Source of the DNA: a virus
Virus record (IMG/VR): IMGVR_UViG_3300046724_000599
Location: 1-24,426 of that record
Direction: 5' to 3' (one strand)
Length of the DNA: 24,426 nt
Shown here: piece by piece, positions 1,477 through 19,865 of the stretch
How positions within the stretch are numbered: position 1 is the stretch's first letter
Layout of the letters: every line of letters starts with the position of its first letter
Notes under the pieces: model-generated
The model's database searches: none
The model's input: the letters and a program-made list of their open reading frames with translations, nothing else
Told to the model about the DNA's origin: nothing
Translations under genes and position numbers: made by a program

Positions 1477-2322
1477 TTACATGCGGCGGCGGTTGAACCC
1501 GACGCCAATTCCGCAGATCCGCCGCATGGTGGCGACTTCCGCCGACATGCAGAGCTTGAGTGGCGACGGCAGGATACCTGCCGGGGTATTCCAATACTGG
1601 AGAGTGGCGGGATCGCGTAAGAACTGGTGTCCCTGCTGGAAGGAATTGTAGTGTACGTGCCAGCCCATCCTGCGCTCGATCGGCGACCAGCGCGGGTTGC
1701 GTTCCTGGAAGACCTTGCGCTCGCCGTGAGCCTGTGAGCGGATCGGGTAATGTTTCAGGACGAACATTTCCTCGCTGATCCGGATGCTTGGGAAGTCGGC
1801 CATGTGGCCCCCGCTAATGAACCGTAGCCGCGGCGTCACCATGCAGGCCTTGACCTGGATCCGATCAGCCACCACGGCCATGGTGTCGTAGTGCCGGAAA
1901 TAGGATTCCGGGTCGGTATCCGGCTCGAATCCGTTGTCGGTCGGATGGAAAGTGAACACCTGATGGTTGATCGCATTGAAGCCTTGCGCCGCCACGCGCG
2001 CGATGCCGGCGGCCAGTGTCTCGCCGGGCACCGGCGACCGGCGGATCTCATCGGCGTCCTGGTGGATGCACCACGCGGCCCCCGATCGTAGGATGATTTC
2101 CGTCTCCCGGTTGAGGATGGCCTGTAGCGAGGTTTGATCGAGCTTATTGGCTGGCCACCGTTCGTAACGCACCTCCGGGTATTCCCTCGCTAAATCCGGC
2201 GTGCCGTCAGTCGACCAGTTGTCGAGTAGGTGGACCTCAATCCCCTGCGTCAACAAGTGCTCCAACGCGGCGCCGATGACGTCGGCCTCGTTGTATGCGG
2301 TAAGGACAGCCAGGATCTTCAT
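1477..2322 (-). CDS. GT2-like glycosyltransferase, 281 aa (sixth of cluster)
   Basis: A GT-A fold family 2 glycosyltransferase, which would move a sugar from a nucleotide-sugar to an acceptor in the cytoplasm. The N-terminus MKILAVLTAYNEADVIGAAL is the classic nucleotide-binding strand and helix. LLDNWSTDGTPDL follows at about 32-44, and the metal-binding DADE is at 89-92. LKHYPIRS (189-196) and RWSPIERRMGWHVHYN (about 211-226) resemble the C-terminal part of GT2 proteins of the glyco_tranf_2_4 sort. The start is ATG 2322, overlapping the previous stop as ATGA; an extended frame to 2349 would lie inside the upstream gene. There are no membrane helices, so the acceptor is probably soluble or virion-associated. 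Donor and acceptor cannot be read from sequence. Confidence 0.82.
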   Translation of the reverse strand: MKILAVLTAYNEADVIGAALEHLLTQGIEVHLLDNWSTDGTPDLAREYPEVRYERWPANKLDQTSLQAILNRETEIILRSGAAWCIHQDADEIRRSPVPGETLAAGIARVAAQGFNAINHQVFTFHPTDNGFEPDTDPESYFRHYDTMAVVADRIQVKACMVTPRLRFISGGHMADFPSIRISEEMFVLKHYPIRSQAHGERKVFQERNPRWSPIERRMGWHVHYNSFQQGHQFLRDPATLQYWNTPAGILPSPLKLCMSAEVATMRRICGIGVGFNRRRM

Positions 2323-2948
2323 GTCGTCATGAACCGGACGCTGCGCCACTTATTGGAGAGTTTTTGACGGTAGAACTGATACTGCAGAATCCAGGATGCA
2401 TAGCCGTCGTGCGCCAGGTCTGGATGTACCGGATGCTCCGCCTGGGCCGCCGGCACGATCACCATGATGCCGCGCTGGCGAGCCTGTAAGCACAGATCCT
2501 CGACATGGCAGTGGAAGCCGTTGAAGGTAGCCTCGTCGAAGCGGATCGTCAGATTCCGGGGCATGAAGACGGAGCAACAGTCGAGCGTCGACACCAGCCC
2601 TGGGCTTCCAGGGGCCCAGCCTCCCGGCACAAGCTCGTCCGGATGCCGTCCTGACCATCGATAGCGCCCCTGCAGGTCGCGGCCGACGATGCCGCAGAGC
2701 GCGCCGGCGCTGGCCGCCATTGTAAACTGGTCGATCGCTCCAGGCCCCAGCACGCAGTCTGCATGGATCAGGCCCACGACGTCAGCCTTCGACAAGGCGA
2801 TCAACTCGTTGCCGATTTTGGCCAGCGACTTGGTCGGTTGGTTCACCATCAGGGTGAAGCGCGGGTCGTCATGCCGCGCGCGGAACTTATCCAGATCGGC
2901 TTCGTTGGCCGCAACCACCAGGACTTCCGTTGTTGTTATTGGTTCCAT
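2319..2948 (-). CDS. Glycosyltransferase-like protein, 209 aa (fifth of cluster)
   Basis: A probable GT-A glycosyltransferase. After an N-terminal strand (TTEVLVVAANEADLDKF) comes VGLIHADCVLGPG, where HADC (62-65) sits in the DxD position; the second Asp is replaced by Cys. HVEDLCLQARQRGIMVIV (148-165) matches the family's acidic ED motif, followed by a buried strand. At 209 aa it is short for GT2 and lacks the usual C-terminal extension. The start ATG 2948 overlaps the upstream gene by 13 bases, and the stop overlaps the next start by 4 (ATGA). The non-canonical DxD makes metal-dependent activity less certain, so it could be a degenerate or accessory transferase. Confidence 0.7.
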   Translation of the reverse strand: MEPITTTEVLVVAANEADLDKFRARHDDPRFTLMVNQPTKSLAKIGNELIALSKADVVGLIHADCVLGPGAIDQFTMAASAGALCGIVGRDLQGRYRWSGRHPDELVPGGWAPGSPGLVSTLDCCSVFMPRNLTIRFDEATFNGFHCHVEDLCLQARQRGIMVIVPAAQAEHPVHPDLAHDGYASWILQYQFYRQKLSNKWRSVRFMTT

Positions 2949-3709
2949 AGGAGATGTTTGAACTGGTACTGGTGTTCTACCACATACTCAGGAAGATCGG
3001 AAAGCGGCGCCGGAAAGAATTGCGGCTCCTCGTTGCCCGGCTGGAAGAGATCCTGCGCGCCCTCGAACATGCGCCGCTGGATGTAATCGATGTCAGTGAA
3101 CGGCGGCACGCTGTATTCAGAGTGGGCGAAGTTGAGCAGCTTGTGCTGTACGGCGGCGGGACCTCCCATATAGGTGAAATGCCATCCACCATCGGTGATC
3201 CGCGAGGCGCTGTTGCGTGTGTTACGCACGGCCTGGAGGGTGTCCATCAACACGCGGCGCGTGATCACCGTTCCGTTCCAGATAGGCGTCTGGCGGAACC
3301 GGTTCAGGTAGGCCATGGACATACGCTGTTCGAGCACGCCGCACCGCATGTTGGAGAATACGCGCGGGTGCGGGATCTCGTCGATGTCGCCGACCAGCAC
3401 CCAGTCTGGCGGCATTGCCATCAGGCGCAGAACCTCTTCGGCCGCATTCCGCTGGTAGTTCTCGGCCTGCCACGGGCCGAGGCCCAGGTCGCGCATCTGG
3501 CAGCGCACGTGGATCACCTTCTCGGCATAGGGCATGCCTGGAAGGACGTCCGGCAAGGTGTACTCCTTCGGGTTGCCGCGGTGCGTCGCGTCGGCCTCAA
3601 CGATGATGAAATGATCGACGTAAGGCCCGATGGTGCCAAGGCGGATCTCCAACACGTCGCGTTCATTGAAATACTGGGTACAGTCGAAGATCACGGTTCC
3701 ATTCCCCAT
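2936..3709 (-). CDS. GT17-like glycosyltransferase (beta-1,4-GlcNAc-transferase fold), 257 aa
   Basis: It resembles family GT17, known from the eukaryotic bisecting GlcNAc-transferase and also found in bacteria and large viruses. Seen: IFDCTQYFNERDVLEIRL at 7-24 (the family's F-x-NE-x-D-x-LEIRL opening), FIIVEADATHRGNPK at 34-48, WVLVGDIDEIP at 103-113 with the catalytic DID-E, and GGWHFTYMGG at 174-183. All key blocks are present and full length. Two starts are possible: ATG 3709, used here, or GTG 3694, which overlaps the previous stop as GTGA and gives a 252-aa product whose N-terminus aligns better with the family. The gene is embedded among GT2-like genes with overlapping ends. The acceptor is unknown. 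Confidence 0.83.
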   Translation of the reverse strand: MGNGTVIFDCTQYFNERDVLEIRLGTIGPYVDHFIIVEADATHRGNPKEYTLPDVLPGMPYAEKVIHVRCQMRDLGLGPWQAENYQRNAAEEVLRLMAMPPDWVLVGDIDEIPHPRVFSNMRCGVLEQRMSMAYLNRFRQTPIWNGTVITRRVLMDTLQAVRNTRNSASRITDGGWHFTYMGGPAAVQHKLLNFAHSEYSVPPFTDIDYIQRRMFEGAQDLFQPGNEEPQFFPAPLSDLPEYVVEHQYQFKHLLWNQ

Positions 3710-4353
3710 TTCTCTTTGTAGATGGCTCGACCCTGAGCGATCGCTCCGCCACTGCGCGGGTTTCCCCGGAAGGTAGATCTCAGCTCGGAATGCTTCAGGA
3801 AACACCCGTCGAACACGCCCAGCTTCAGCCCTGCCAGTTTGACGCGGTGAGCGTAGTCGTTATCCTCGGAGCCGTAAGTTACGAAGCGCTCGTCGAGCAA
3901 TCCCACCCGGTCAATGACGCTGCGCGGGATGTAGACGCAGACGAAGCAGAGCGTCCAGGTTTCGAGCCGTAGCCCCTCGCCGGCCTGTGGGCTCTGGTTC
4001 ACGTTCCCGCACAGGTCGACCGCGGCGGCGATCACGCCAAACTCAGGGTTGGCCTTGGCGACCTCCTCCAGTTTGGTGAAGCCTCCAGGAGTTTGTAGCG
4101 TAGCGTCATCGTTGAGCAGGATGACGTCGGACGGAGCCGAAGCCTGGATGCCCAAGTTGACGTTGCGCGCGAAGACGAACGGCTTGACGCCTGGGATGAC
4201 CGAGGTAGGCCCCCCAGGCTGATTCCAGCCGCGCCAGTTGAGTCCGTCGTCGATCACGGTCACTTTGGAATTAGGCTCTTTGAGGTGCACTGCGGCGAGG
4301 CACCTCGACAGGTTCGTAATCAGTTTGGAGGGTACGATAATTGTGGCGTTCAT
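3691..4353 (-). CDS. GT2 glycosyltransferase, 220 aa (third of cluster)
   Basis: A GT-A family 2 enzyme. The N-terminus MNATIIVPSK gives the first nucleotide-binding strand, and VTVIDDG (31-37) the second. VNLGIQASAPSDVILLNDDA contains the metal-binding NDDA (81-84). VGLLDERFVTYGSEDNDYAHRV (150-171) is the acceptor-side block of rhamnosyltransferase-like GT2 proteins, with an ED-x-D-x-x-x-R pattern. LKLGVFDGCFLKHSE follows with the conserved His. No membrane helices are seen. The start follows the previous stop by 7 bases, with AAGG 5 to 8 bases upstream. It is the most canonical GT2 member of the cluster. Sugar specificity is not readable. Confidence 0.85.
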   Translation of the reverse strand: MNATIIVPSKLITNLSRCLAAVHLKEPNSKVTVIDDGLNWRGWNQPGGPTSVIPGVKPFVFARNVNLGIQASAPSDVILLNDDATLQTPGGFTKLEEVAKANPEFGVIAAAVDLCGNVNQSPQAGEGLRLETWTLCFVCVYIPRSVIDRVGLLDERFVTYGSEDNDYAHRVKLAGLKLGVFDGCFLKHSELRSTFRGNPRSGGAIAQGRAIYKEKWGMEP

Positions 4354-4360
4354 GTTTGCC

Positions 4361-4915
4361 TTAGTTGTGAACCCATAGAACTCCTGGGGCTTTCGCGTGG
4401 CTCAGGCCGGTGGCCACCAGCTGCTCGACGAGCATGCCGTCGGCATACACGGGTGACTCCTCCCAGGGAAAGGGCTGGAACTGCTCGCGCCGGATCAGGA
4501 AGCCGCCCTTGTCGATCACGTTGAGAGCCGGTTCCACCGGGACGACGCGATACTCGGTACCGCCACGCGGATCGTAGACCATGTCACAATAGATCAGGTC
4601 CGCGTCCTGGGCCAGCATCAGTTCGAGGAACTGAGGCACGTAATAGTTGTCGTCACTGGGGAAACAAAGGTAGTCGCCCTTCGCGACGGTCGCAAGCAGG
4701 TTCGCGCTCTCGTAGCAATTCCCTTTATTCCCGGTGTAGCAATGGACGAAACGGTCGTCATTTAGGCCCGCCACCACGGGCCACATCATGCTCAACGGCG
4801 AGTTGTCGGCCACCAGGACCTGGAAGTCATTCTCGGTCTGCACCTGCAAGGCGCGCAGCAGACAAGCCAGGTGATTGGGGCGGTTGAAGGCCGAGACGAT
4901 GAAGGAGCACTTCAT
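4361..4915 (-). CDS. GT2 glycosyltransferase, 184 aa (second of cluster)
   Basis: A short GT-A family 2 protein. MKCSFIVSAFNRPNHLACLL opens the fold, FQVLVADNSP (31-40) is the second strand, and GNKGNCYESANLLATVAKGDYLCFPSDDNY gives the SDDN metal site (87-90). LIYCDMVYD and GGFLIRREQFQPFPW correspond to the acceptor loop. It ends abruptly after VLWVHN, so it holds the minimal catalytic domain only. The start ATG 4915 overlaps the upstream gene by 4 bases (ATGA), a sign of translational coupling. Confidence 0.83.
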   Translation of the reverse strand: MKCSFIVSAFNRPNHLACLLRALQVQTENDFQVLVADNSPLSMMWPVVAGLNDDRFVHCYTGNKGNCYESANLLATVAKGDYLCFPSDDNYYVPQFLELMLAQDADLIYCDMVYDPRGGTEYRVVPVEPALNVIDKGGFLIRREQFQPFPWEESPVYADGMLVEQLVATGLSHAKAPGVLWVHN

Positions 4916-5568
4916 GAGATTGCCGCGATCAGGGAGGGAGTCGGCTGGATCCGTTTCCAGGACGGGCCACTCACGCCTTTAGGGCTGGTATTGCCGGTGT
5001 GGCCGCTGTGGATGCGGGCGACGATCATCTCATCGGCGGCGGCTTCCAGGAAGCATCGCGCCTTGCGGGCATCCTTGACGAACGGCCCGTCGTCGGAATC
5101 GGTGCGGTGTTTGGGGCAATCGAGGAAAGGGTGTTTCTCCCACCAGTCGCGGCGGTAGAACAGGGTGGTGCCTCCGATCCAGTCGGGCCTCGCGTAGCGC
5201 CACCAGCCCACCCCGTCGGTGAACACGAGGGAATGGTAGCCGGTGACCGAGTAGGTGGATCCGTCCAAACGCAGGAACTGGTCGGCTATACGATCCGGAG
5301 CCGACCAGTCGTCGGAATCGAAGTGGCAGATGTATTCCCCGGCCGCCATGGAACAGGCCAGGTTGCGCTTGGTGCCGATGGTGGCGCGCTCGGGGAGACT
5401 CACGTAACGCACCCGCGGATCGCAGATGCCGGCCGGGAAGGACGGACAATCCATGTCGTCCACGATGACCATCTCGGTATCGGCGTAACGCTGCCGTTTC
5501 CAGGACTCGAAAGCGGCCCGCGCGAACGCTTGCCGCCCTCTGGTTGGCATGATGGCGCTGATCCTCAT
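4912..5568 (-). CDS. GT2 glycosyltransferase, 218 aa (first of cluster)
   Basis: A family 2 GT-A enzyme. MRISAIMPTRGRQAFARAAF is the nucleotide-binding opening, EMVIVDDMDC (32-41) the second strand, and GEYICHFDSDDWSAPDRI (77-94) carries the metal-binding DSDD at 84-87. IGGTTLFYRRDWWEKHPF (131-148) and DSDDGPFV (157-164) match the acceptor side. A short tail with IHSGHTGNTS follows. The true start is ATG 5568, which shares one base with the tail-fibre stop (TGATG). A longer open frame up to 6081 is only a shadow of the fibre gene, because its N-terminal stretch is Arg/His/Gln-rich nonsense. Being coupled directly to the tail fibre gene, it may act on the fibre, but this is inference. Confidence 0.85.
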   Translation of the reverse strand: MRISAIMPTRGRQAFARAAFESWKRQRYADTEMVIVDDMDCPSFPAGICDPRVRYVSLPERATIGTKRNLACSMAAGEYICHFDSDDWSAPDRIADQFLRLDGSTYSVTGYHSLVFTDGVGWWRYARPDWIGGTTLFYRRDWWEKHPFLDCPKHRTDSDDGPFVKDARKARCFLEAAADEMIVARIHSGHTGNTSPKGVSGPSWKRIQPTPSLIAAIS

Positions 5569-6509
5569 CAGCCTATGCTCAGGCTCCATTCGACCCATCC
5601 GTTGGGGCCCTGGATGGCCGGCGTCCCGTACTGGACGAAGACGCTGTAATAGTGCCCCGGCTCGACCAGGAAGGTAAGAGTCACACCGTTGTGTCCGGTC
5701 GGGTTGACGGCCTGGCAGACCTCGGTTGCCGGGGTATTGCTGCCGTCGCTGTAGGCGAGCGCGTTGTAGGCATCGGTCAGCGAATCCAGGGGCACGTTGA
5801 CGATCATCGGGCTCAAGCCGATGTTCTGGTACACATGCTGCCAGGGCCCGGTCGTGCTGATCTCCCGGTCGGGCGGCATGTAGGTCCGGGTGGTGATCAG
5901 TATCCTGCCGCTGGCCGCGCTCTGGCTGATGATGTTCCAGCCCCATCCGTCGCAGAGCAGGGTGACGAAGTCCCCGTGGTTGGATAAGAAGTATCCGGTG
6001 GTTACGCCGTCGATCTCGTGCTCGCCCATGATGGTTACTTTGTTTGGGGTGTAGTCGATCTTCTTGATCGTCACCGTCCATCCGCCATGGGTATTGGGGT
6101 CGTAAAGGGTGCGCGTGATGGGCCCGTCGTCGCAGGCAACCCCTTCGTAGACATAGGTGTACTGGTTGCTCACGGTGCCGGTCGTCGTGATCCCGAAGAT
6201 CGCGGGCAGGCTGCCGCTGCCGCTGCCGGGAGGCGGCGGCGTATCGGTCGGAACATCGGTGCGGATCCGGGAAAGCGCCGACACCAGGCCCGGGAAATCG
6301 TCATCCGAGGTGGAGATGCCCTTGTTTGACAGGGCCGTGGCCAGCGCCGCCGTCATCATGGACGACTGGTGTATCACCTTGTTGAACAGGGTGGAAGGCA
6401 GAAGCTGTCCCACCTGTGCCCCGTCGACTCGCATCGGATCCGCCGTGTAGGCGCTGTCGGATTCGGCATTGTTTAGGTGCGGATTGAACTCTTGAAAGTT
6501 AGTCGACAT
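5568..6509 (-). CDS. Tail fibre-like protein, 313 aa
   Basis: The N-terminal 85 residues (FNPHLNNAESDSAYTADPMR, GAQVGQLLPSTLFNKVIHQ, SNKGISTSDDDFPGLVSAL) resemble the baseplate-attachment segment of short phage fibres, in which a helix leads to an NKG motif. A TDTPPPPGSGSGS linker (89-100) joins it to a C-terminal part of about 210 residues that looks all-beta. That part is rich in Thr, Gly and aromatic residues and likely forms the exposed receptor-binding or trimer region; I do not recognise its fold. The start ATG 6509 has AAGGAGT four bases upstream. It follows the DUF2612 gene as expected for a fibre. It may bind the host envelope or be a substrate of the glycosyltransferases downstream. 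Confidence 0.75.
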   Translation of the reverse strand: MSTNFQEFNPHLNNAESDSAYTADPMRVDGAQVGQLLPSTLFNKVIHQSSMMTAALATALSNKGISTSDDDFPGLVSALSRIRTDVPTDTPPPPGSGSGSLPAIFGITTTGTVSNQYTYVYEGVACDDGPITRTLYDPNTHGGWTVTIKKIDYTPNKVTIMGEHEIDGVTTGYFLSNHGDFVTLLCDGWGWNIISQSAASGRILITTRTYMPPDREISTTGPWQHVYQNIGLSPMIVNVPLDSLTDAYNALAYSDGSNTPATEVCQAVNPTGHNGVTLTFLVEPGHYYSVFVQYGTPAIQGPNGWVEWSLSIG

Positions 6510-10118: not shown

Positions 10119-10898
10119 TCACGTTATTTGGATAATCACGCCCTCGACGACGGTGACCACCTGACCATCGGAGGACGTGAAGCTGCCGGTGGCCCCGTTC
10201 TTAACCAGCAGGGAATTCTCGACCACCACGTCCCCGGTCTCCGCGGTGAGATAGATGGATCCGTCGGTCCGCATCTCAATCGAGGAGCCGCCCGCTTCCA
10301 GCGACAGGTTCCCTTGGTCGAACAGGTTGACTCTCACGCTGCCATCGTCGTTGCGGAACTGGACCGCTTCGGTCGAGTAATCGGGCAGCGCCCGCGGCGT
10401 CGAGCGCAGGCCGAAGATCGCGATCGCGTCGGAGAGGCTGTGGCGGCGCTGGGAGATCTGGTTCTGCGCCTTCACGCCTCCTGTTTCGTCTAGCTCCGCG
10501 CCGAGTTGGAACCAGGAGTCGAGAGCCGTGTCCATGAAGACCAGCAGGCATTCGTCGCCCGGTTTGATGGGAAAGGTCATGCTCCAGCCGCCCGCGCCCA
10601 TCACTACGATGGGCACGTCCTCTAAGAGGGGCAATTTGACCGCTTCGGTGGTTGGGTTCAAAAAGCGTGGGTCCTTGCTTGTCAGGACCCTCTCGGTGAT
10701 CGCGATGACTACGCTGACGGTGACCGTCTCCGGATCGAAGGCGGTAACTACGGCGGGAGCGGCCACTCTCAAGCCCTGGAAGATGCTCTCGCGCAGCAGC
10801 CGCATCCGCTCCACGGAAGGCATCAGATGCTCTTCCATGGTCAGGCCGAAGTTCGTATCGGGCGCAGGCGTGGTCTTGGCGGTTTCTTTGAGAAGCAC
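10119..10898 (-). CDS. Gp138-type membrane-puncturing spike, 259 aa
   Basis: It matches Gp138-family central spikes. The N-terminal part (about 45-150) is an OB-fold with LPLLEDVPIVVMGAGGWSMT (89-108), FPIKPGDECLLVFMDTALDS (109-128) and RRHSLSDAIAIFGLRS (151-166), all in the usual order. From about 175 the protein becomes a repetitive beta region (GSVRVNLFDQGNLSLEAGGS, SIEMRTDGSIYLTAETGDVV) typical of a trimeric beta-helical needle that pierces the outer membrane. It ends VVEGVIIQIT, with no added enzymatic domain. The start is GTG 10898, sharing one base with the hub stop (TAGTG); an ATG at residue 21 is an alternative. An outer-membrane-piercing spike implies a Gram-negative-type host. Confidence 0.88.
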   Translation of the reverse strand: MLLKETAKTTPAPDTNFGLTMEEHLMPSVERMRLLRESIFQGLRVAAPAVVTAFDPETVTVSVVIAITERVLTSKDPRFLNPTTEAVKLPLLEDVPIVVMGAGGWSMTFPIKPGDECLLVFMDTALDSWFQLGAELDETGGVKAQNQISQRRHSLSDAIAIFGLRSTPRALPDYSTEAVQFRNDDGSVRVNLFDQGNLSLEAGGSSIEMRTDGSIYLTAETGDVVVENSLLVKNGATGSFTSSDGQVVTVVEGVIIQIT

Positions 10899-12121
10899 TA
10901 TTTTATGTCCTTCCTCGCGCCTTCTTTGACGTATGCGGTCATCGCGTCCTGATACTTGGGAAACCAGTCCCAGAGCAGGGCAGTGATCTCGGTGAACCAG
11001 TCATCGCCATGTCCGCGGGAATCACCATAATGCCGCAAACCGGAGACAATATACATGCCGTTCCGCGAAGGCCTGGCCGGGCGTTGCTGCATAAACGTGT
11101 ATTCGTACGGGTTGATGATGGTGCCGGGGGCCAGTTGGATCACCATCCCGATCCTCACGTCTGGGTCCATCAGCACGCGGAAAGTCACGCCGTTGAAGGT
11201 CTGCTGCGGCACTCCGATCAGGGTCGGTTTGATCAGGCCCTGGCTGCCGAGTCCGCCCTTGCCGGCCCAGGTGTAAGTTGGGAAACCGGGCGGTCCGTAG
11301 TTGATATCCACGGTCGTCGGCTCCTCCTTCCCCGTAAAGGAACGCACATGGATATTAGGTGGATCGCCAGAGGCGGTAGGATTGCCGACCCAGGCGAACA
11401 GGGTGCTCTGCCGCATTAATTCCCGAACCATCTGGAACGGCCTGTCGTGCACCGCCTGCGCCCGGGGGAAGGTAATGTCTCTTAGCTTCTTCTCGGCATC
11501 CGGAGCGACGTCTAATTTGGCTCCGGATTCTTTCGCGATGGTATCGAGGGTATCGTAGTAGGTCGCCCCTTTGGAGATCGGCAGGCTCAGGAAGTTCAGC
11601 GAGTCCTCCATGAAGCCGAACGCCAGCCGCAATTTGAGCGTGTAATCGACCACGTTGACCCGCGTCCAGATCGGCTGAAACACTCTTCCGGCGTAAAGGA
11701 AGTTCAGCTGCGGGTCGAACGGATCGGCGCTGTTGCCGGAAGGCCCGATGTGGACTCCCTGCTCGTATCCGGCGCTGATCGAAACGGTATCGCCGTACAA
11801 TAGCGGCGAGTCGGCCGAGAGGTTCTCCGCCGCGCCGGTGCCCACCGACCGCGTCGTGCGCGCGAGGTTAAAAATCGTCAGTTCCGCCGTCCAGTAGGCT
11901 ACGCTCATGGCCGTGTCGATGGCAAACACCACGTGCAACGGCGTCTCATCCGCCGCAACCCGGGACGATACCACATAGTGTGGGATCGCGTCTTCCAGCC
12001 TGGGCGCGCTGTTGGCGATAATGAGCGATCCGGTGGGATCGCTGGCCCGCTGGCCGTCGATGGCGATATGCCACGCGCGCCCGAAGACTCCAGCTGGCGG
12101 AGGAAATCGTTGCGAACTCAT
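10898..12121 (-). CDS. Baseplate hub protein (gp27/gpD-like), 407 aa
   Basis: This is the central hub that joins the tail tube to the spike. Seen: AWHIAIDGQ near the N-terminus, LHVVFAIDTAMSVAYWTAEL and TIFNLARTT (beta-barrel strands), LNFLYAGRVFQPIWTRVNVV and DYTLKLRLAFGF, then FQMVRELMRQ, GVTFRVLMDPDVRIGMVIQL and GMYIVSGLRHYGDSRGHGDD near the C-terminus. These blocks are typical of hub proteins in contractile tails with DUF3383 sheaths. The start is taken as ATG 12121, which overlaps the upstream stop (ATGA); a GTG at 12136 would add only MRGRR. It lies directly before the spike gene, as expected for hub and spike partners. Confidence 0.85.
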   Translation of the reverse strand: MSSQRFPPPAGVFGRAWHIAIDGQRASDPTGSLIIANSAPRLEDAIPHYVVSSRVAADETPLHVVFAIDTAMSVAYWTAELTIFNLARTTRSVGTGAAENLSADSPLLYGDTVSISAGYEQGVHIGPSGNSADPFDPQLNFLYAGRVFQPIWTRVNVVDYTLKLRLAFGFMEDSLNFLSLPISKGATYYDTLDTIAKESGAKLDVAPDAEKKLRDITFPRAQAVHDRPFQMVRELMRQSTLFAWVGNPTASGDPPNIHVRSFTGKEEPTTVDINYGPPGFPTYTWAGKGGLGSQGLIKPTLIGVPQQTFNGVTFRVLMDPDVRIGMVIQLAPGTIINPYEYTFMQQRPARPSRNGMYIVSGLRHYGDSRGHGDDWFTEITALLWDWFPKYQDAMTAYVKEGARKDIK

Positions 12122-15024
12122 CCGCCGCCCCCGCACGCGTTGTAATACAGCCTCAGGTTTAGCGGCACGCTGCCTCCGTTGATCGGCAGCGTCACAAAGA
12201 TCCTGTGGTTCGGCTGGTTGGTCACCGGAACCAGGAAGGGCGTCGACTGGCCGAAGCTGTCGTTAGAATCCCACAACAGGCAGAACCCGGTTCCCAGGTC
12301 CGACGGGTCGGGCCTGTCGGTCACTCCGCCATTCTGGTTGACCACCATGGCGGATCCGATCCCCAGGTAGTCCACGGAGGCCAGAATATTGCCTCCAGGC
12401 CATGCCCCCGGCAGCAGCGGGATCGAGCTTACGATCGGATCGTTGAAGCGGTCGGCAATGTCCATCACCCAGAACGATTCCATCGGGACAGGAACGATCA
12501 GGATGACGTTGATGAAGCAGACGACCGACAGGCAGCTTGGCGGCGAACCGAAGTCGCACACCGTTACAGGGAAGAAGAAGGACCCCAGCTGTCGAGGCAC
12601 TCCGGAGATCGTTCCGTGCTGGTCCATCGTCAGCCCCGGTGGCAGGCCCGTGGCGGACACGACATACTCCCCGGGTTCCAGCCCGTTGACCTTGATCTTG
12701 TGCACGTACTGGGCTCCCAGCGAAGCGCCAGGAGGGTTGTCGCAGTCGATGGCGAATACCGTGATCGAACATTCGAGGTCTATGCAGTTCGGCGGGGAGG
12801 CATTGTCGCAGCCCCGGACCGTGAAGACGTACTTACCGGGTTCGGTAGGAACTCCGGTGACTTTGCCGGTGTTGTCGATGGTCAGCCCGGGCGGCAGGCC
12901 CCCGGTACCGCCTCCTCCGCCGGCTCCCCCGGCAGGCTGGATCAGAGACTGAAACGACCCGGAAGCGGTTGCGAAGTCGATGTCAGTGACGGTGACGGTA
13001 AAGTTGAAGGTCCCGGCGGTGGAAGGCACTCCGTCGAGAACCCCGTCCGGCATCAGGGCCAGTCCTGGAGGCAGGCTGCCTCCCGTCACGCTGAAAGAAT
13101 ACGGCGGCGCGCCTCCGGTAGCGCCGAACGTCGCGCGAAAGACCACGCCCACACGTCCGGCAAGCGATGTCGGCGGTGCCATGGCCAGGGTCGGCGGCGG
13201 CGCTGTCGACGCTGCCTCGATGATCGCTGTAACTGCGCGCGAATCCGAGGCTGAAACCGCATCCGTGACCGTTACCGTGAACGAGAAGGTTCCCGCTAAG
13301 GTAGGCACTCCGCTCAGGAGGCCGTTGACGAACGTCAGGCCGTCAGGTGCGGTTCCGGCGGTGATCGCGAACGAGTACGGCTGGGTGCCGGAGTCCGCGG
13401 TGAACTGGGCGCTGTAAGAGACTCCGACGCGGCCGCCCAGCGCCGGCGTAAGCAATACCAGCGCTACCGACGACGCCGGAGCGATGATGGACGTCACGGC
13501 CACGGAGTCGCTGCCGCTGCCGGAGTCCGTCACCCTGACGGTGAAATGGTAGACGGTCGGCTGGAACAGGATGAAAGCGCCAGGAACTCCGCTCAACAGA
13601 CCGCTTGCGTCGAGAGTCAGGCCCAAGGGCAGGGTTCCCGCCGTAACGCTGAAGGCATACGGCCCGACCCCGCCGGTGGCGGTGAACTGGCGGCTGAAGG
13701 AAACTCCTACCGTCCCATCGCAGGAAGGCGCGGAGATGACCACCGGCGGCGGCGGCGGCGACACGATGGTGGCAGTCACCTCCGCCGTCGCGCTGTTGCC
13801 GGGGATCCCGTCCGTGACAGTTACGAAGAAGTGGTAGGTTCCCGCCGTGGTAGGCGTGCCGCTGTAGACGCCGTTCGAGGCCAGAGTCAGGCCCGGAGGC
13901 AGCGGCCCAGTGTCGACGCCGACATGGATGAAGGTATACGGCGGATCGCCTCCGCTGGCGGTGAAGGCGCGCGCCAGAGGCACCCCAACCGTCCCGTCGA
14001 CGGAAGGTGCGGCGATGGCCAGGCCCGCAGGCGCGCCGGCCATGTTATTCGTCTGCGACGCCAGACCGGGTACCGTATAGAACGTGAACCACAGCCGCCG
14101 GTCGCCGGGCAGATCGAAGCGATGCCAGATCTCGTTAGGCGACGTCTGCCGGGAGTCCGGGAAGTCGTACGTCTGCACCTCGAGCGTGAGCGGGTTGATG
14201 CGCGCGAGCAGGCCGGGACTGCCTTGCAAGCTGGTCCAGACCCAGGTGTTGTCGTAATAGACGCAATAGTTGGCCCTGGTTCCGGTGTGCGGGATAGGGA
14301 TCAGGGTGCAGTCGTTGAGATCGAATTTTGAGACCCGCGTGACGTAGCCGGATAGCTCCGAACCGAGATAGATGTAATCCGGCCCGATCGCCAGGTCGTC
14401 GGTGAACAGCAGGTGGCCCTCCAGGCCGGCACCATACTGCTCCACCGTCCAGGTAACGGGGTCCACCTTGGCGATGGTGTTGCCGAAGGTCTGCGTGCTG
14501 GTTACGAAGATCCGGTTCGTCTGGAAGTCGTAGCGGCAGCAGTGGGGCCCCTGGCCCATGTCCATCGGGATGACGCCGTTATAGAGCCAGTCGGAAAGCT
14601 GGAACCTGAGCAGTACGTCGCTCAGACGGCAGGCGATGTATATGTGGTTCTCGTCGAAACACATCGACCCCTGTTCCGGGTTATAGCCTCCCAGATCATG
14701 GATGACGTCGGTCCAGGCCAGCGTGGTCGGATCGACTTCGACGACCGTGATGGCCTTGGCCGAGTCGTCAAACGGATGGCCGAACAGGCAATAGATCTTA
14801 CCCTTGGCTGGGATATAGACGATGTCCATCAGCCATTGGTGGGTGCCGTCGTTCGGAAACGTGATCGTCTGGTAAGCCCCGGGGTTATCCGGGTCCATCC
14901 GGATGAGCTTGCCTGGAATGGTTTCGGTCCCGATCCAGAGATAGCCCACAGCCCAGATCAGCGAATGCGGCAGATCCTGGCCGGGAACGAACGGCTGTAT
15001 CCAGTCGTTGATGATGGTCGGCAT
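12118..15024 (-). CDS. Baseplate adhesin: beta-propeller, six He_PIG units and a permuted plug domain, 968 aa
   Basis: Residues 1-325 look like a beta-propeller of the NHL/SMP-30 sort, with repeated blades (AVGYLWIGTETIPGKLIRMD, EGHLLFTDDLAIGPDYIYLG, YCVYYDNTWVWTSLQGSPGL). Residues 332-847 hold He_PIG putative-Ig units; the fifth lacks its first half and follows a Gly-rich linker (AGGAGGGGGTGG). The C-terminus resembles the small baseplate plug family (DUF6983/Pam3 gp18-like) with its halves swapped: WVMDIADRFNDPIVSSIPLL to DLGTGFCLLWDS (852-920) comes first, then LVPVTNQPNHRIFVTLP and LNLRLYYNA (931-963). Its position just before the hub is where a plug gene is expected. No signal peptide. 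Inferred role: a plug carrying an exposed receptor-binding arm. The plug match rests on recalled family patterns. Confidence 0.78.
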   Translation of the reverse strand: MPTIINDWIQPFVPGQDLPHSLIWAVGYLWIGTETIPGKLIRMDPDNPGAYQTITFPNDGTHQWLMDIVYIPAKGKIYCLFGHPFDDSAKAITVVEVDPTTLAWTDVIHDLGGYNPEQGSMCFDENHIYIACRLSDVLLRFQLSDWLYNGVIPMDMGQGPHCCRYDFQTNRIFVTSTQTFGNTIAKVDPVTWTVEQYGAGLEGHLLFTDDLAIGPDYIYLGSELSGYVTRVSKFDLNDCTLIPIPHTGTRANYCVYYDNTWVWTSLQGSPGLLARINPLTLEVQTYDFPDSRQTSPNEIWHRFDLPGDRRLWFTFYTVPGLASQTNNMAGAPAGLAIAAPSVDGTVGVPLARAFTASGGDPPYTFIHVGVDTGPLPPGLTLASNGVYSGTPTTAGTYHFFVTVTDGIPGNSATAEVTATIVSPPPPPVVISAPSCDGTVGVSFSRQFTATGGVGPYAFSVTAGTLPLGLTLDASGLLSGVPGAFILFQPTVYHFTVRVTDSGSGSDSVAVTSIIAPASSVALVLLTPALGGRVGVSYSAQFTADSGTQPYSFAITAGTAPDGLTFVNGLLSGVPTLAGTFSFTVTVTDAVSASDSRAVTAIIEAASTAPPPTLAMAPPTSLAGRVGVVFRATFGATGGAPPYSFSVTGGSLPPGLALMPDGVLDGVPSTAGTFNFTVTVTDIDFATASGSFQSLIQPAGGAGGGGGTGGLPPGLTIDNTGKVTGVPTEPGKYVFTVRGCDNASPPNCIDLECSITVFAIDCDNPPGASLGAQYVHKIKVNGLEPGEYVVSATGLPPGLTMDQHGTISGVPRQLGSFFFPVTVCDFGSPPSCLSVVCFINVILIVPVPMESFWVMDIADRFNDPIVSSIPLLPGAWPGGNILASVDYLGIGSAMVVNQNGGVTDRPDPSDLGTGFCLLWDSNDSFGQSTPFLVPVTNQPNHRIFVTLPINGGSVPLNLRLYYNACGGGG
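12484..14031 (-). repeat. He_PIG (putative Ig) repeat array in the 968-aa protein
   Basis: Six units of about 85-95 residues share the pattern GxVGVxYSxxFTAxGGxxPY, SVTAGxLPPGLTLD, SGVPTxAGTxxFTVTVTD. Approximate residue spans: 332-425, 428-518, 520-610, 611-697, 706-757 (first half missing) and 759-847. Units 5 and 6 carry Cys residues in the sandwich that units 1, 3 and 4 lack, so they form a distinct subfamily. Confidence 0.85.
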
Positions 15025-15025
15025 G

Positions 15026-16987
15026 TTAGTTACTCAGGGCCCTCACGACTTCCACAGTGTACGGCCCCTCGCCGCCACGGATGTCGAACTGGTGGGTGTA
15101 ATCCACGCCCATGGCAGCAAGCGGCGGATTATTGCAGTCGGCCTGCAGCGGACCGTGAATCGTGATCTCGCACGTCACCTGGTCGGAAATCAGCCTGATA
15201 GTGATCGAGCAGTCCACTTCCGTGGCCCGGCCCAAGGCGCCCAGCTCGGTTACTTTCACCCGGAACGGGTAAGTCCCGGCCGTGGTCGGAACGCCCGTGA
15301 TCATGACCACCGAGTCGATTTCCAGACCAGGCGGCAGGCTGCCCATATAGACCTGGACAAAGAACGGCCCGGAGCCGCCCAGCAAGAGCATCTGATGCAC
15401 GTAATCCACGCCTACCGCGCCGTTGGGCGGATCGGCGCAAGCGAGAAAGATGGGTACAGCGCCGACACTGATCGCACAATCCACCGAGGCGGTATCGCCT
15501 AAGGAGTCGGTAACGTGGATCGTGAAGTGGTCGGTCCCGGCAAACATCGGCGTGCCGGTAATCAGCGCCGTATTGCTGATCGCAAGGCCGGCAGGGAGGG
15601 AGCCGGCTGTCACGGTTACCGTGTAGGGTCCCGTCCCTCCGGAGAGCGTCATCTGGTGGGAGTAAGCGATGCCCCGCGTGCCTACGGGAGGAGAGGCGCA
15701 GTCGATCGCGGGAGGGTGTGGTAGCGTGATGGCGTTAAATAAAGCCAACTCGTGGCGCAGATTGTTCTCGCTGAAACAGCCGAGAATCGCCAGCCCCACC
15801 GATTCTCCGAGCCAGGTATTGACGACAGCCGCTGTCCAGAAATCCCCAACCGTTGGGGCCATTATGTTCACATCCGGCGTGGACCAGGAAGACAGGGCTG
15901 CCAGGCTTGCGAACGAGTGGCAGATCCTCCCTAGCCCGCCAGAGAGACTCCAAGTGGGCGTCGATCCGGAAACTGCCCAAAACACGTGCAACGAACTGGT
16001 GGCCGCCGTGAACGCAATCGCCGTACTCAGCGCAGACCCCATGGAAGGATCGATGACGACCGGAACATCGCCGTCCGGATGGACCACCGCGGTGCTCCAG
16101 GTTGGAGTAAGGCTGGCATCGCCGTAGTAGAGAACGATATCCCCATTGGACGAAGCTGAATTGTTCACCCCGATGAAGCCGATTTTGTCCCCGGACAGGT
16201 TGAAGTTAACGACGTTGCTAACCTCTTCCGGTGGGTCGAGGTGGACAAAGAACCCGTCAGTTTCAATCGTCTGGAAGGTGCCGAATGCGCCGGCGGAGTC
16301 CATCCCGATGTGGTAATATTTGCGGCCGGAAGTCGAGCCAAGGATGAGATGCAGGTTACCGCTCGGATCGAGGGCCGCGCCGCCTTGGCTGAACGCTAGG
16401 CTGCCAGTTTGCCCACCGACTACGGTTGCCCCAGAAAACGACGAGCCATCAAAACTCGCTACCCAAAGTCTGGCAAACTGCGATCCGGCGATGGCTTCCG
16501 GCGTACCCTGATAAACGAACCAAAACGAACCGGCTGCACGTCGAACCAGGCTCAACCCGACGCACTTGTTGATTTGATAGGCAGATGGCGTAGGCCCATG
16601 CCAGAACTTATAGACCTGAGGAGCACCAGAGAGGGCGATCGTGGAGAAGGTATCGCTGGTTAGATTGAACGTCCATCCCGCCAAGGCCGCGCAAAGGTCA
16701 CTCGTCCCACCGTTATGAGTGTCCGTGGAAAGGACATATACCGTGTCGCCGTCCTGACAGACGGTTACCGATGGAACAGGTCCGATCATGACGCTGCCGA
16801 CATCGTTCCAGGTAGCGCCATTGTCCGTACTTTTGATGACGTGAAGCTGTAAATCGCCAACGCCGCTCTCTGCGCCTTCGGCGGCGAAAACATATTGATT
16901 CCCGCCGTGCTCTAGCCCGGTAATTCCGTGCGGCGAGTATCTGAAGTCGTACCCGTCGGGAGTGGTTCCAACTGTACTTACGCTCAT
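15026..16987 (-). CDS. Propeller/sialidase-fold plus He_PIG protein, 653 aa
   Basis: Residues 1-420 have the look of a six-bladed sialidase-like propeller, with an Asp-box STDNGATW at 53-60 and further blade-like repeats (GGAALDPSGNLHLILGSTSG, TAIAFTAATSSLHVFWAVSG). I see no full sialidase active-site set, so binding is more likely than catalysis. Two He_PIG units follow (about 424-510 and 512-602), then a third that breaks off after GGEGPYTVEVVRALSN, just where LPPGL should follow. The start ATG overlaps the previous stop (ATGA). It is a paralogue in layout of the 603-aa protein upstream. Inferred role: a baseplate-associated, glycan-binding adhesin. Confidence 0.78.
   Translation of the reverse strand: MSVSTVGTTPDGYDFRYSPHGITGLEHGGNQYVFAAEGAESGVGDLQLHVIKSTDNGATWNDVGSVMIGPVPSVTVCQDGDTVYVLSTDTHNGGTSDLCAALAGWTFNLTSDTFSTIALSGAPQVYKFWHGPTPSAYQINKCVGLSLVRRAAGSFWFVYQGTPEAIAGSQFARLWVASFDGSSFSGATVVGGQTGSLAFSQGGAALDPSGNLHLILGSTSGRKYYHIGMDSAGAFGTFQTIETDGFFVHLDPPEEVSNVVNFNLSGDKIGFIGVNNSASSNGDIVLYYGDASLTPTWSTAVVHPDGDVPVVIDPSMGSALSTAIAFTAATSSLHVFWAVSGSTPTWSLSGGLGRICHSFASLAALSSWSTPDVNIMAPTVGDFWTAAVVNTWLGESVGLAILGCFSENNLRHELALFNAITLPHPPAIDCASPPVGTRGIAYSHQMTLSGGTGPYTVTVTAGSLPAGLAISNTALITGTPMFAGTDHFTIHVTDSLGDTASVDCAISVGAVPIFLACADPPNGAVGVDYVHQMLLLGGSGPFFVQVYMGSLPPGLEIDSVVMITGVPTTAGTYPFRVKVTELGALGRATEVDCSITIRLISDQVTCEITIHGPLQADCNNPPLAAMGVDYTHQFDIRGGEGPYTVEVVRALSN
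15029..15718 (-). repeat. He_PIG repeats in the 653-aa protein, last one truncated
   Basis: Two complete units and one N-terminal half unit. Each begins with a Cys-containing motif (IDCASPPVGTRGIAYSHQM, ACADPPNGAVGVDYVHQM, DCNNPPLAAMGVDYTHQF) and, where complete, contains LPxGL and ITGxP motifs. The final unit ends before LPPGL. Confidence 0.85.
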
Positions 16988-18795
16988 ACTGTTGTCTTCA
17001 CTGTAAAAGAGAATGTTCCGGGCAGCGTCGGAACGCCGGTTATCAGCCCTGAGGAACTGATCGACAGGCCGGGCGGCAGGGCCCCTCCGGTGAGCGTCAC
17101 CGTACCGGCGGACACCAGCATGTGATGCGAGTAAGGCTCGCCCACGTCCCCATCAGGAGGGCTGTCGCACTCGATGACTGGACCCGTCCCGGTGATGGTG
17201 ATCGCGCAAGCGACCGAGGCGGTCTCGGGCGGCGATCCGGGCGTGGTAATCTCGGCGGTGAAATCGAAGTCGCCAGCTAAAGCGGGCGTGCCGGTGATCT
17301 CCCCGGAAGAGCTCATCGTCAGCCCGTCCGGAAGCGCTCCGCCTGTTATGGCCACCGTGAACGTACCGCCGTGGGTGGTGGGCAGGGTGTGATCGTAAGG
17401 AGTGCCGACCGCGCCATCCGGAGGATCGCCGCATTCTATCGTAGGCGGCGATGGAGCCGAGACGAAGCTGAATTGGGTAACAAGGAAAGGCGGAAAGTTG
17501 CTGAGCTGTTGAGCGTGCCCCACTACACCAAACCCGCCCGCCATGGGGAACGCCAGCCCCTGCACATTAACATAGGCTGAAAGGCCGCTAATCGTCGTGA
17601 TAGGAGCCGGCGTCGGGATCACGGAGACCGGCGTTGTCCAGACGGGAGTTCCGGTGGCCGGACTCGTCGTGGAGTAGACATCTGACACTGCGTCATAGGA
17701 GAAGGATCCGGTGAACGACACCCATGTGACGATGAGAGTATTGCTGTTCGCCGCCAAAGAGAACATCTCGGCATGCGAGGCAAAGTGTGGAATGTCAAGC
17801 GGAACAACGGCTTGATCTGTACTGATATCCGACTGCGTAAAGGTAGGATTCAGTGTTTCGGTGGCGCTGAAGAACCGCACAAAGATCGGGTAGGGAGCTA
17901 CGCCGAACACGCTGCTTACGAACGCCACCTTCCGGGTTGCGCCGTCCAGGTAGATAATCGGCTGCGAGACTCCGTCCGGCCCGGTGTTCTGACCGGCATT
18001 CATATCGCCTGGAGAGACGCTGGAATCGATCACCAGGGAAGTCGTCCCATAGCTGTTGCCGGAATCCATCGCCACATGGTGCAGGCTGGACTGTGATCCG
18101 CCGCTTACCATCAGAAAGTGCGTGTTGCCCGATGCCGGATCGTATACGGAACCGCATGGCTGGTACCACCTGCCGCCCACCTGCCCTGGAATGGGCATCG
18201 CGCTGCCGAAGGTTGAACCGTTATACGTCACTACCGTAGCGGTTCCCCGCTGCGCCGGGAGTGTCCCGCTCATCGCGCCAGGGACATAGACCAGATAGTC
18301 TCCGGGGCCGCGCACGATCAAGTGAATCGTGCAGCGGTTGGAGTGGTCGCCCACGCCCGTGCCGCCGGAATCAGTCGTATCCATCATGTCGATGAATGGC
18401 GCGGCTGTCGTGCTGACGCTTCCCCACGAACCGCCGACCAGATCAAAGACCACCTTGGAAATAGTGAAGCCACTCCAGAAGAAATGGGTAACATCCTTGG
18501 TCGCATTGACCCACAACAGAATCACACTAGCGCCGTCGCGGGCAACGGTGAAGGCAATATCCCACCCGGCGTTGAGAGTGCCCCCAAGGGTAAACGGCCA
18601 CTGCGGGCCGACAATTTCCGTCCACGTTGCCCCGCCATCGGCCGATTTTAGGCACCTGAACTGGTTGTCAATCGTTAAGACATCGCTGTCGCCCCGCCAG
18701 GTGAACAGGTATAAGTTGCCTAGATACTCAAACCCGTATGCGTTCTGCGAGACGGAGTCGCCGAACAATGTCCCGGGCGGAATCACGATCGCCAT
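16984..18795 (-). CDS. Propeller/sialidase-fold plus He_PIG protein, 603 aa
   Basis: The N-terminal 445 residues form a likely beta-propeller with an Asp-box SADGGATW at 51-58 and blade-like segments (YEYLGNLYLFTWR-like opening, AFTVARDGASVILLWVNATK, RKVAFVSSVFG). Two He_PIG units follow (about 451-536 and 539-603); the last lacks its final strand and ends FSFTVKTTV. No signal peptide or membrane segment is seen, consistent with a virion protein assembled in the cytoplasm. The start follows the 56-aa peptide's stop by 1 base. It is the first of three adjacent propeller/Ig genes that fill the place between the Dit-like and hub genes. Carbohydrate or receptor binding is inferred from the fold. 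Confidence 0.78.
   Translation of the reverse strand: MAIVIPPGTLFGDSVSQNAYGFEYLGNLYLFTWRGDSDVLTIDNQFRCLKSADGGATWTEIVGPQWPFTLGGTLNAGWDIAFTVARDGASVILLWVNATKDVTHFFWSGFTISKVVFDLVGGSWGSVSTTAAPFIDMMDTTDSGGTGVGDHSNRCTIHLIVRGPGDYLVYVPGAMSGTLPAQRGTATVVTYNGSTFGSAMPIPGQVGGRWYQPCGSVYDPASGNTHFLMVSGGSQSSLHHVAMDSGNSYGTTSLVIDSSVSPGDMNAGQNTGPDGVSQPIIYLDGATRKVAFVSSVFGVAPYPIFVRFFSATETLNPTFTQSDISTDQAVVPLDIPHFASHAEMFSLAANSNTLIVTWVSFTGSFSYDAVSDVYSTTSPATGTPVWTTPVSVIPTPAPITTISGLSAYVNVQGLAFPMAGGFGVVGHAQQLSNFPPFLVTQFSFVSAPSPPTIECGDPPDGAVGTPYDHTLPTTHGGTFTVAITGGALPDGLTMSSSGEITGTPALAGDFDFTAEITTPGSPPETASVACAITITGTGPVIECDSPPDGDVGEPYSHHMLVSAGTVTLTGGALPPGLSISSSGLITGVPTLPGTFSFTVKTTV
16987..17445 (-). repeat. He_PIG repeats in the 603-aa protein
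   Basis: Two units with the Cys-type opening (IECGDPPDGAVGTPYDH and IECDSPPDGDVGEPYSHHM), then GGALPxGLxxSSSGxITGxP in both. The near identity of the central motif suggests recent duplication between them. Confidence 0.85.
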
Positions 18796-18971: not shown

Positions 18972-19865
18972 TTAGAAGATGGGCAGGCTGCCGAAATGTC
19001 CGGCCCCTGGAACGGAATAGCGTCGCGCGATGATCGGCACGACTGCGGCTATCGTCCCGGGCGCGGAGTTCTGCGATTGGATCGCTGCCGGGATCGGCCC
19101 CGGCTGCACCGGACCTCCGGTCGTCGCGGCGGTCGCATCGGCCCGCGAGGAATCCAGGCCGTCACCCATGGTGGCGTAATTGACGGTCGATTGGATTAAC
19201 TCGATCTGCGCAAATTGGATTTTTGTGAAGGTGACAACGAACTTCCCGGCGTACCGGGTCTCTCTGGTTTCCTCGCAGCGGATATCGCTGATCAGCATGT
19301 CGTCGTACTGGTTCATGCGGGTGGCGACCGACAACCGCATCCGCTGCCGCTGGAAGCCGACTAAGGTCAGATAGGCATTGACGCTTTTGGATGGCCCGCC
19401 GGACCACTGCCCCACGGTGTACTCCTGCATGGCATCGCTCATCGCGATCTCGACAGTAAGCCGCGGCGGCAGCACGTAGGCATGATCCGCGATGGGAGAA
19501 CCGTTTTGCACGGGGTTGAGGGTGATGATGGACTGCGTCTCGTGATCGGCGCGGATCACGCTGTCGAACACGTAGGTAGGCGGTTTCAGCCGCGCCTCCT
19601 CCCTCGCTGCCGCCGTGGGGTCGAAACTAGGATTGGGTATGAATTGGCCGAATTGGTCGGTAAATCCCTGCTCCGCGGCAGAGTTCTGCGGAGGCCGGAG
19701 CGGATGCGGGATCAGGGTCAGCGCCGGCTTCTGTTTGACCCACTGCGGAGGGCGGTAAGGACCGCCACGAGGCGGGACCAAGGCGTTCCTGGTAGCGCCC
19801 AGCGCCCAGTAGACCTGCGACAGCGCGGAGGCAATTTTGACTGCGTAAGTTTCGAAGTCGGCCAT
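18972..19865 (-). CDS. Dit-like baseplate hub adaptor protein, 297 aa
   Basis: Residues about 96-225 match the Dit-like N-terminal domain of contractile phages: PTYVFDSVIRADHETQSIIT (96-115), SPIADHAYVLPPRLTVEIAM (123-142), VNAYLTLVGFQRQRMRLSVA (162-181), YDDMLISDIRCEETRETRYA (187-206) and FTKIQFAQIEL. This domain rings the end of the tail tube and anchors the hub. A 95-residue N-terminal extension with Pro/Arg-rich sequence (PPRGGPYRPPQWVKQKPALT) and a C-terminal Ala/Pro/Gly-rich tail of about 65 residues are additions to the core. The gene follows the tape measure after one base, as expected. The start ATG is consistent with tight packing. Confidence 0.82.
   Translation of the reverse strand: MADFETYAVKIASALSQVYWALGATRNALVPPRGGPYRPPQWVKQKPALTLIPHPLRPPQNSAAEQGFTDQFGQFIPNPSFDPTAAAREEARLKPPTYVFDSVIRADHETQSIITLNPVQNGSPIADHAYVLPPRLTVEIAMSDAMQEYTVGQWSGGPSKSVNAYLTLVGFQRQRMRLSVATRMNQYDDMLISDIRCEETRETRYAGKFVVTFTKIQFAQIELIQSTVNYATMGDGLDSSRADATAATTGGPVQPGPIPAAIQSQNSAPGTIAAVVPIIARRYSVPGAGHFGSLPIF

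Follow-up and report, generated by a model that had tools for sequence, protein, structure and literature searches.

The gene that precedes the baseplate hub in this soil phage raises the question of whether the plug, a core protein of contractile-tail baseplates, can be encoded in circularly permuted form. The window (the whole stretch of 24,426 nt that was analysed, IMG/VR record IMGVR_UViG_3300046724_000599) contains a 968-aa ORF on the minus strand (12118..15024), and an initial annotation had proposed that two plug blocks stand in swapped order at its end, in residues 848-968 (12118-12483). We consider it quite likely that the final ~120 residues form a circularly permuted plug of the Pam3 gp18 type, which replaces the normal plug gene and anchors immunoglobulin (Ig)-propeller arms.

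The 968-aa protein starts with a propeller-like region, continues with some five to six Ig repeats and ends in the permuted plug. Its N-terminal domain (residues 1-350, 13975..15024, minus strand, as for all genes and domains given below for the window) is homologous to residues 20-368 of a protein of a related locus, L151, and no Pfam or PDB match to these residues named a propeller. The initial annotation had described a propeller/Ig protein; the Ig part was confirmed by six Pfam stretches of He_PIG repeats (residues 351-845, 12490..13974), whilst the propeller label is a putative fold class suggested by the sequence. The repeats are followed by the canonical second part of the plug, here termed the C-block (residues 849-921, 12262..12480), identified by PF22479 and by HMM. 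A linker (residues 922-929, 12238..12261), delimited by alignment with locus L144 and lacking any strand in the AlphaFold2 model, bridges the canonical C- and N-termini. The canonical first part, the N-block (residues 930-963, 12136..12237), was placed by re-rotation, tblastn, HMM and shuffles, and is followed by a brief Gly-rich tail and the stop codon.

The end of the 968-aa gene shares a 19 bp overlap with the baseplate hub gene (10898..12136; phrog_196, 4.7e-27), beyond which lies a spike-type gene (10119..10898; PF18352, 4.7e-24) in the same position as in canonical phages. On the other side is a Dit-like or tube-initiator gene (18972..19865; PF21821, 3.8e-21; phrog_817), the canonical upstream neighbour of the plug. 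The genes run in the order Dit, 603 aa, 653 aa, 968 aa, hub and spike, and comparison with canonical phage loci showed that the 968-aa gene fills the Dit-to-hub slot in which those phages have their plug, in agreement with the position before the hub that was originally assigned to it. The 653-aa (15026..16987) and 603-aa (16984..18795) products are Ig-repeat proteins by Pfam, contain no plug blocks and are likely to be further arm or fibre proteins. These two adjacent paralogues (15026-18795) share 28% identity.

In the whole protein, residues 849-920 matched positions 34-100 of PF22479 (Pam3_gp18, the Pam3 baseplate plug) with E=1.3e-7 and a score of 32.4 bits, above the curated cut-off of 24.2; residues 845-968 alone scored 39.8 bits (E 6.5e-10), and the phrog_349 match of the C-block covered profile positions 37-108. 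The Pfam search did not report the N-block at its native position, where only profile positions 34-100 were matched. This is the one point in favour of a chance likeness, in which the last 40 residues would be an unrelated tail. When residues 925-964 were placed ahead of residues 848-924 in silico, the re-rotated sequence scored 48.5 bits against PF22479 over positions 4-100, so that all regions of the profile are present, compared to 33.3–35.1 bits for controls carrying four shuffled N-blocks or a neighbouring Ig segment. The corresponding phrog_349 scores were 48.8 bits and 32.6–33.3 bits. The gain of +13 to +16 bits upon re-rotation speaks against chance, as do the results of separate N-block and C-block HMMs built from 12 canonical plugs only, which detected the C-block first (1.3e-21) and the N-block second (1.8e-8) in the same ORF. 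The N-block HMM scored 31.8 bits on this ORF, 2.4 bits on the runner-up ORF of the window and at most 11.4 bits on 10,000 shuffles of the tail. Together with the similarity of the N-block to that of L151, detailed below, these data refute the chance explanation.

A tblastn search with a canonical clostridial plug placed query residues 38-104 at 12477-12268 and residues 2-38 at 12237-12127. The two segments map in exchanged order with zero overlap, a single cut point and ~10 residues between them. Because re-rotation, block HMMs, shuffles and the non-overlapping tblastn map agree, the swap is real and its halves are complementary; the order of the plug halves in the 968-aa protein is C–N, as first noticed. 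PF22479 has no full-length N-to-C match in the native order, and the first third of the profile matches after the rest. The protein has the hallmarks of circular permutation, namely the same residues, one cut and old termini joined by a linker, and is a genuine circular permutation inside a known plug family. Profile searches bound to one order lose the first half of such a domain, and would record the protein as one of Ig repeats and an incomplete plug.

An assembly artefact was excluded. In a separate assembly, an independent contig of this phage (G001) carries the same gene with 99.9% identity throughout, and a second permuted lineage occurs in two assemblies. The rearrangement of this viral machine part is natural, and not a sequencing accident, because the swap recurs in a second phage lineage and the unswapped arrangement is found in a sister phage. 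A third contig (G006, 55 kb) reaches further on the upstream side, and together with the window about 68 kb of this phage is available. No other plug was found on the window, G001 and G006, all three of them linear fragments that lack end repeats. The observation that had been named as fatal to the proposal, a normal plug at another place in the genome, was consequently not seen in these ~68 kb; since the Dit-to-hub slot is also occupied, we conclude that the permuted domain probably replaces the normal plug. That it should instead be a relic or an additional copy beside a normal plug gene is very improbable: linear contigs leave room for a missing part of the genome, but the combined sequence contains no other plug match, the Dit-to-hub slot is complete and the conserved residues are retained in two diverged lineages.

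To determine how common the swap is, relatives were collected, including 32 related loci from a Dit-based scan. Across all fetched loci, 151 ORFs had the N–C order and 10 the C–N order, the latter confined to this phage and a single further lineage (L144/L145/L175); of the 99 distinct plug sequences, those of this phage and of the L144/L145 lineage were the only swapped ones. Three candidates were discarded: L103 resembled a full-length match and proved to be canonical, with two pieces in canonical order; a 'lysozyme' of S-SCSM1 was a chance glycine-rich match; and WC36-2, whose locus seemed to be split, encodes a normal plug.

The other permuted lineage encodes a BNR-like-propeller plug protein (L144/L145, IMG/VR 3300038424_000013), which ends in a C–N plug 57% identical to that of the 968-aa protein, with the same conserved junction. 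It differs in that its N-terminal domain is unrelated, it has no Ig array, its gene lies after the spike gene, and an endonuclease gene is inserted at the C|N junction. Non-permuted homologues are also found among the close relatives (L151, L146, L148 and others). The most informative is L151 (6433-8142; IMG/VR 3300050010_000009), in which the propeller-like domain is followed by an Fn3_assoc/CHB domain, in place of the Ig repeats, and then by a canonical N–C plug. Its N-terminal domain shares 36.5% identity with that of the 968-aa protein over 350 residues (E 6e-56), and its plug halves share 60% (C) and 48% (N; E 6e-8), in swapped order. A tree built from re-rotated plugs grouped L144, the window and L151 together with 80% support. 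That the permutation arose once is only likely, because trees of the separate blocks disagree on the closest pair: the N-block tree joins the window to L144 (73%) and the C-block tree joins it to L151 (74%). For L144, the N-block that entered the tree was its in-frame copy, possibly brought in by a cassette.

We propose that the permuted gene may have arisen by in-frame tandem duplication of a plug, fusion and loss of the outer halves, which would leave the order Ig-C-N, in a clade with recurrent fusions of plugs to appendages. The cut would lie at the hairpin turn ahead of the W-[VMT]-M-D-I motif, with the old N- and C-termini bridged by the short linker. A search for the N-C-N-C intermediate of such a route, suggested at the outset, found no single fused protein of this kind among the fetched relatives. 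The nearest arrangement is in Yersinia phage YP3 (L186, record 32974-33645), where two near-identical in-frame tandem plug copies are separated by two stops. We rejected this pair as an intermediate, as its segments are 98.7–100% identical to sequence elsewhere in the record, which is likely to be a chimeric assembly.

A different route to the same order would be a move of the N-block alone to a position behind the C-block, for example through duplication of gene ends by a homing endonuclease, and the L144 locus bears on this. Here the C|N junction contains a low-GC block with a GIY-YIG/NUMOD3 endonuclease gene (L144:5100-6436), and the order is C-block, in-frame N-block, endonuclease and a second N-block ORF (N'), the stop of which overlaps the beginning of the wedge gene that follows. 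GC content falls from about 0.6 to 0.42–0.5 across the end of the C-block, the N-block and the endonuclease; GC3 is 0.35 in N and 0.71 in N', the latter near that of its neighbours. Between N and N', synonymous sites are 92% different (pS 0.92) and nonsynonymous sites 12% (pN 0.12). A search of L144 for group I introns was negative, and free-standing GIY-YIG homing endonucleases are known beside phage genes in T4 (PMC2988022).

On the simplest reading of these sequences, the endonuclease cassette appears to have entered the C|N junction of L144 together with a recoded N-block that keeps C–N in frame, stranding the native N'. Recoding of the N-block could also shield the target site of the carrier itself. 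If this reading is right, it suggests that the C-terminal N-block is needed for function, because the cassette copy restores C–N. The association of the element with a duplication of exactly the N-block lends some weight to a move of that block alone. We nevertheless regard such a move as unlikely, given that the 968-aa gene has no endonuclease and that the native N' of L144 already ended at the same NEGF-stop; the permuted gene is hence probably older than the element, and duplication of the whole plug gene remains our preferred origin.

The initial annotation had further suggested that the permutation allowed the N-terminal propeller/Ig arm to leave from a new surface loop. This explanation was not supported, as in L151 the same propeller precedes a plug of canonical N–C order: an N-terminal arm does not require a permuted plug, and L151 argues that permutation is not obligatory for the arm. 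Other relatives extend the canonical C-terminus. Such C-terminal extensions were observed in L155:10823-11857, L159:654-1601 and L128:4881-5650, with collagen-like GPP repeats in L155 and L159, and at L163:9845-11050 a Dit-like protein and a canonical plug are fused in one ORF. From L151, the C-terminal extensions and the L163 fusion, we conclude that the plug is a frequent docking point for appendages in this clade. What the permutation would change is the exit point, since the arm of the permuted form would emerge from the hairpin turn that precedes the W-x-M-D-I strand instead of from the canonical N-terminus.

Structure prediction of the region around residues 845-968, which had been proposed as a check, used permuted domains and correctly placed canonical half-domains, all from locus-derived sequences only. 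The AlphaFold2 model of the swapped domain had a mean pLDDT of 86.4 and a pTM of 0.80, with strands in both halves, from an alignment in which canonical N and C halves occupy separate rows and cross-half coevolution is accordingly thin. The N-block reached a pLDDT of about 90, and values below 60 were confined to the brief C-terminal tail. A single-sequence model (pLDDT 36.5) was discarded as meaningless. The swapped domain is thus confidently predicted to be one compact fold, which would presumably have plug topology. A Foldseek search of the PDB and BFVD with this model gave no significant match; such aligners follow chain order and perform poorly with permutations. A phmmer search of the PDB with the permuted domain alone likewise gave no match, and a canonical profile search found Pam3 gp18 and others. 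The proposal of a circular permutation is therefore supported by the sequence, the second permuted lineage, the non-permuted sister and a confident single-domain model, with the plug topology as its predicted element.

Pam3 gp18 was deposited as six chains (PDB 7yfz), and in Pam3-type baseplates a six-fold ring of a small protein fills the gap between hub and wedge (PMC11915804). In such a ring the N-block of each subunit might complete the C-block of its neighbour, with no closure within the chain; a neighbour would be at hand, and the linker of about 8 residues is brief. We consider this strand swapping quite improbable, as the single chain is confidently modelled as one domain and canonical fusions at both termini show that both are exposed, which fits closure in cis. 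We favour a permuted domain that would close on itself into the normal plug fold and, judging from the copy number and docking of its relatives, would dock as a multi-copy ring between tube initiator, hub and wedges, with each copy anchoring one Ig-propeller arm, probably for host-surface binding.

The plug of cyanophage Pam3 (PF22479 Pam3_gp18/phrog_349; PDB 7yfz chain h) resembles that of the 968-aa protein in both blocks, in the spacing within them and in its Dit-to-hub slot, whereas the 968-aa protein has swapped blocks and an arm of ~845 residues in front, and ends after the canonical first block. BH1a of simple myophage baseplates, a small six-fold protein on the tube initiator between hub and wedge (PMC11915804), is probably the same protein as the plug, which would make it the equivalent of gp18. 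Within the titles and abstract openings returned by a non-exhaustive literature search on phage and baseplate, there was no case of circular permutation at the protein level, and on that basis reports of natural circular permutation in the structural machines of viruses seem to be rare. A wider reading, which we put forward tentatively and with some doubt, is that a permuted core contractile-tail baseplate protein has been kept in two diverged lineages, that a homing-endonuclease cassette targets its new junction with a recoded half-domain that keeps the fold intact, and that the arm exit has moved to a new loop. The permuted second lineage, the non-permuted sister that shares the N-terminal domain, and the fusions at either canonical end are comparators that make it possible to test whether the plug serves generally as a base on which host-binding arms dock, and whether a shifted attachment point alters the geometry of the arm.

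An Rfam search of the window gave no match. Several glycosyltransferase-like genes lie downstream of the baseplate genes at 1477-6081, of which 4912-6081 matches PF00535 and the others were recognized by reading of their sequences.
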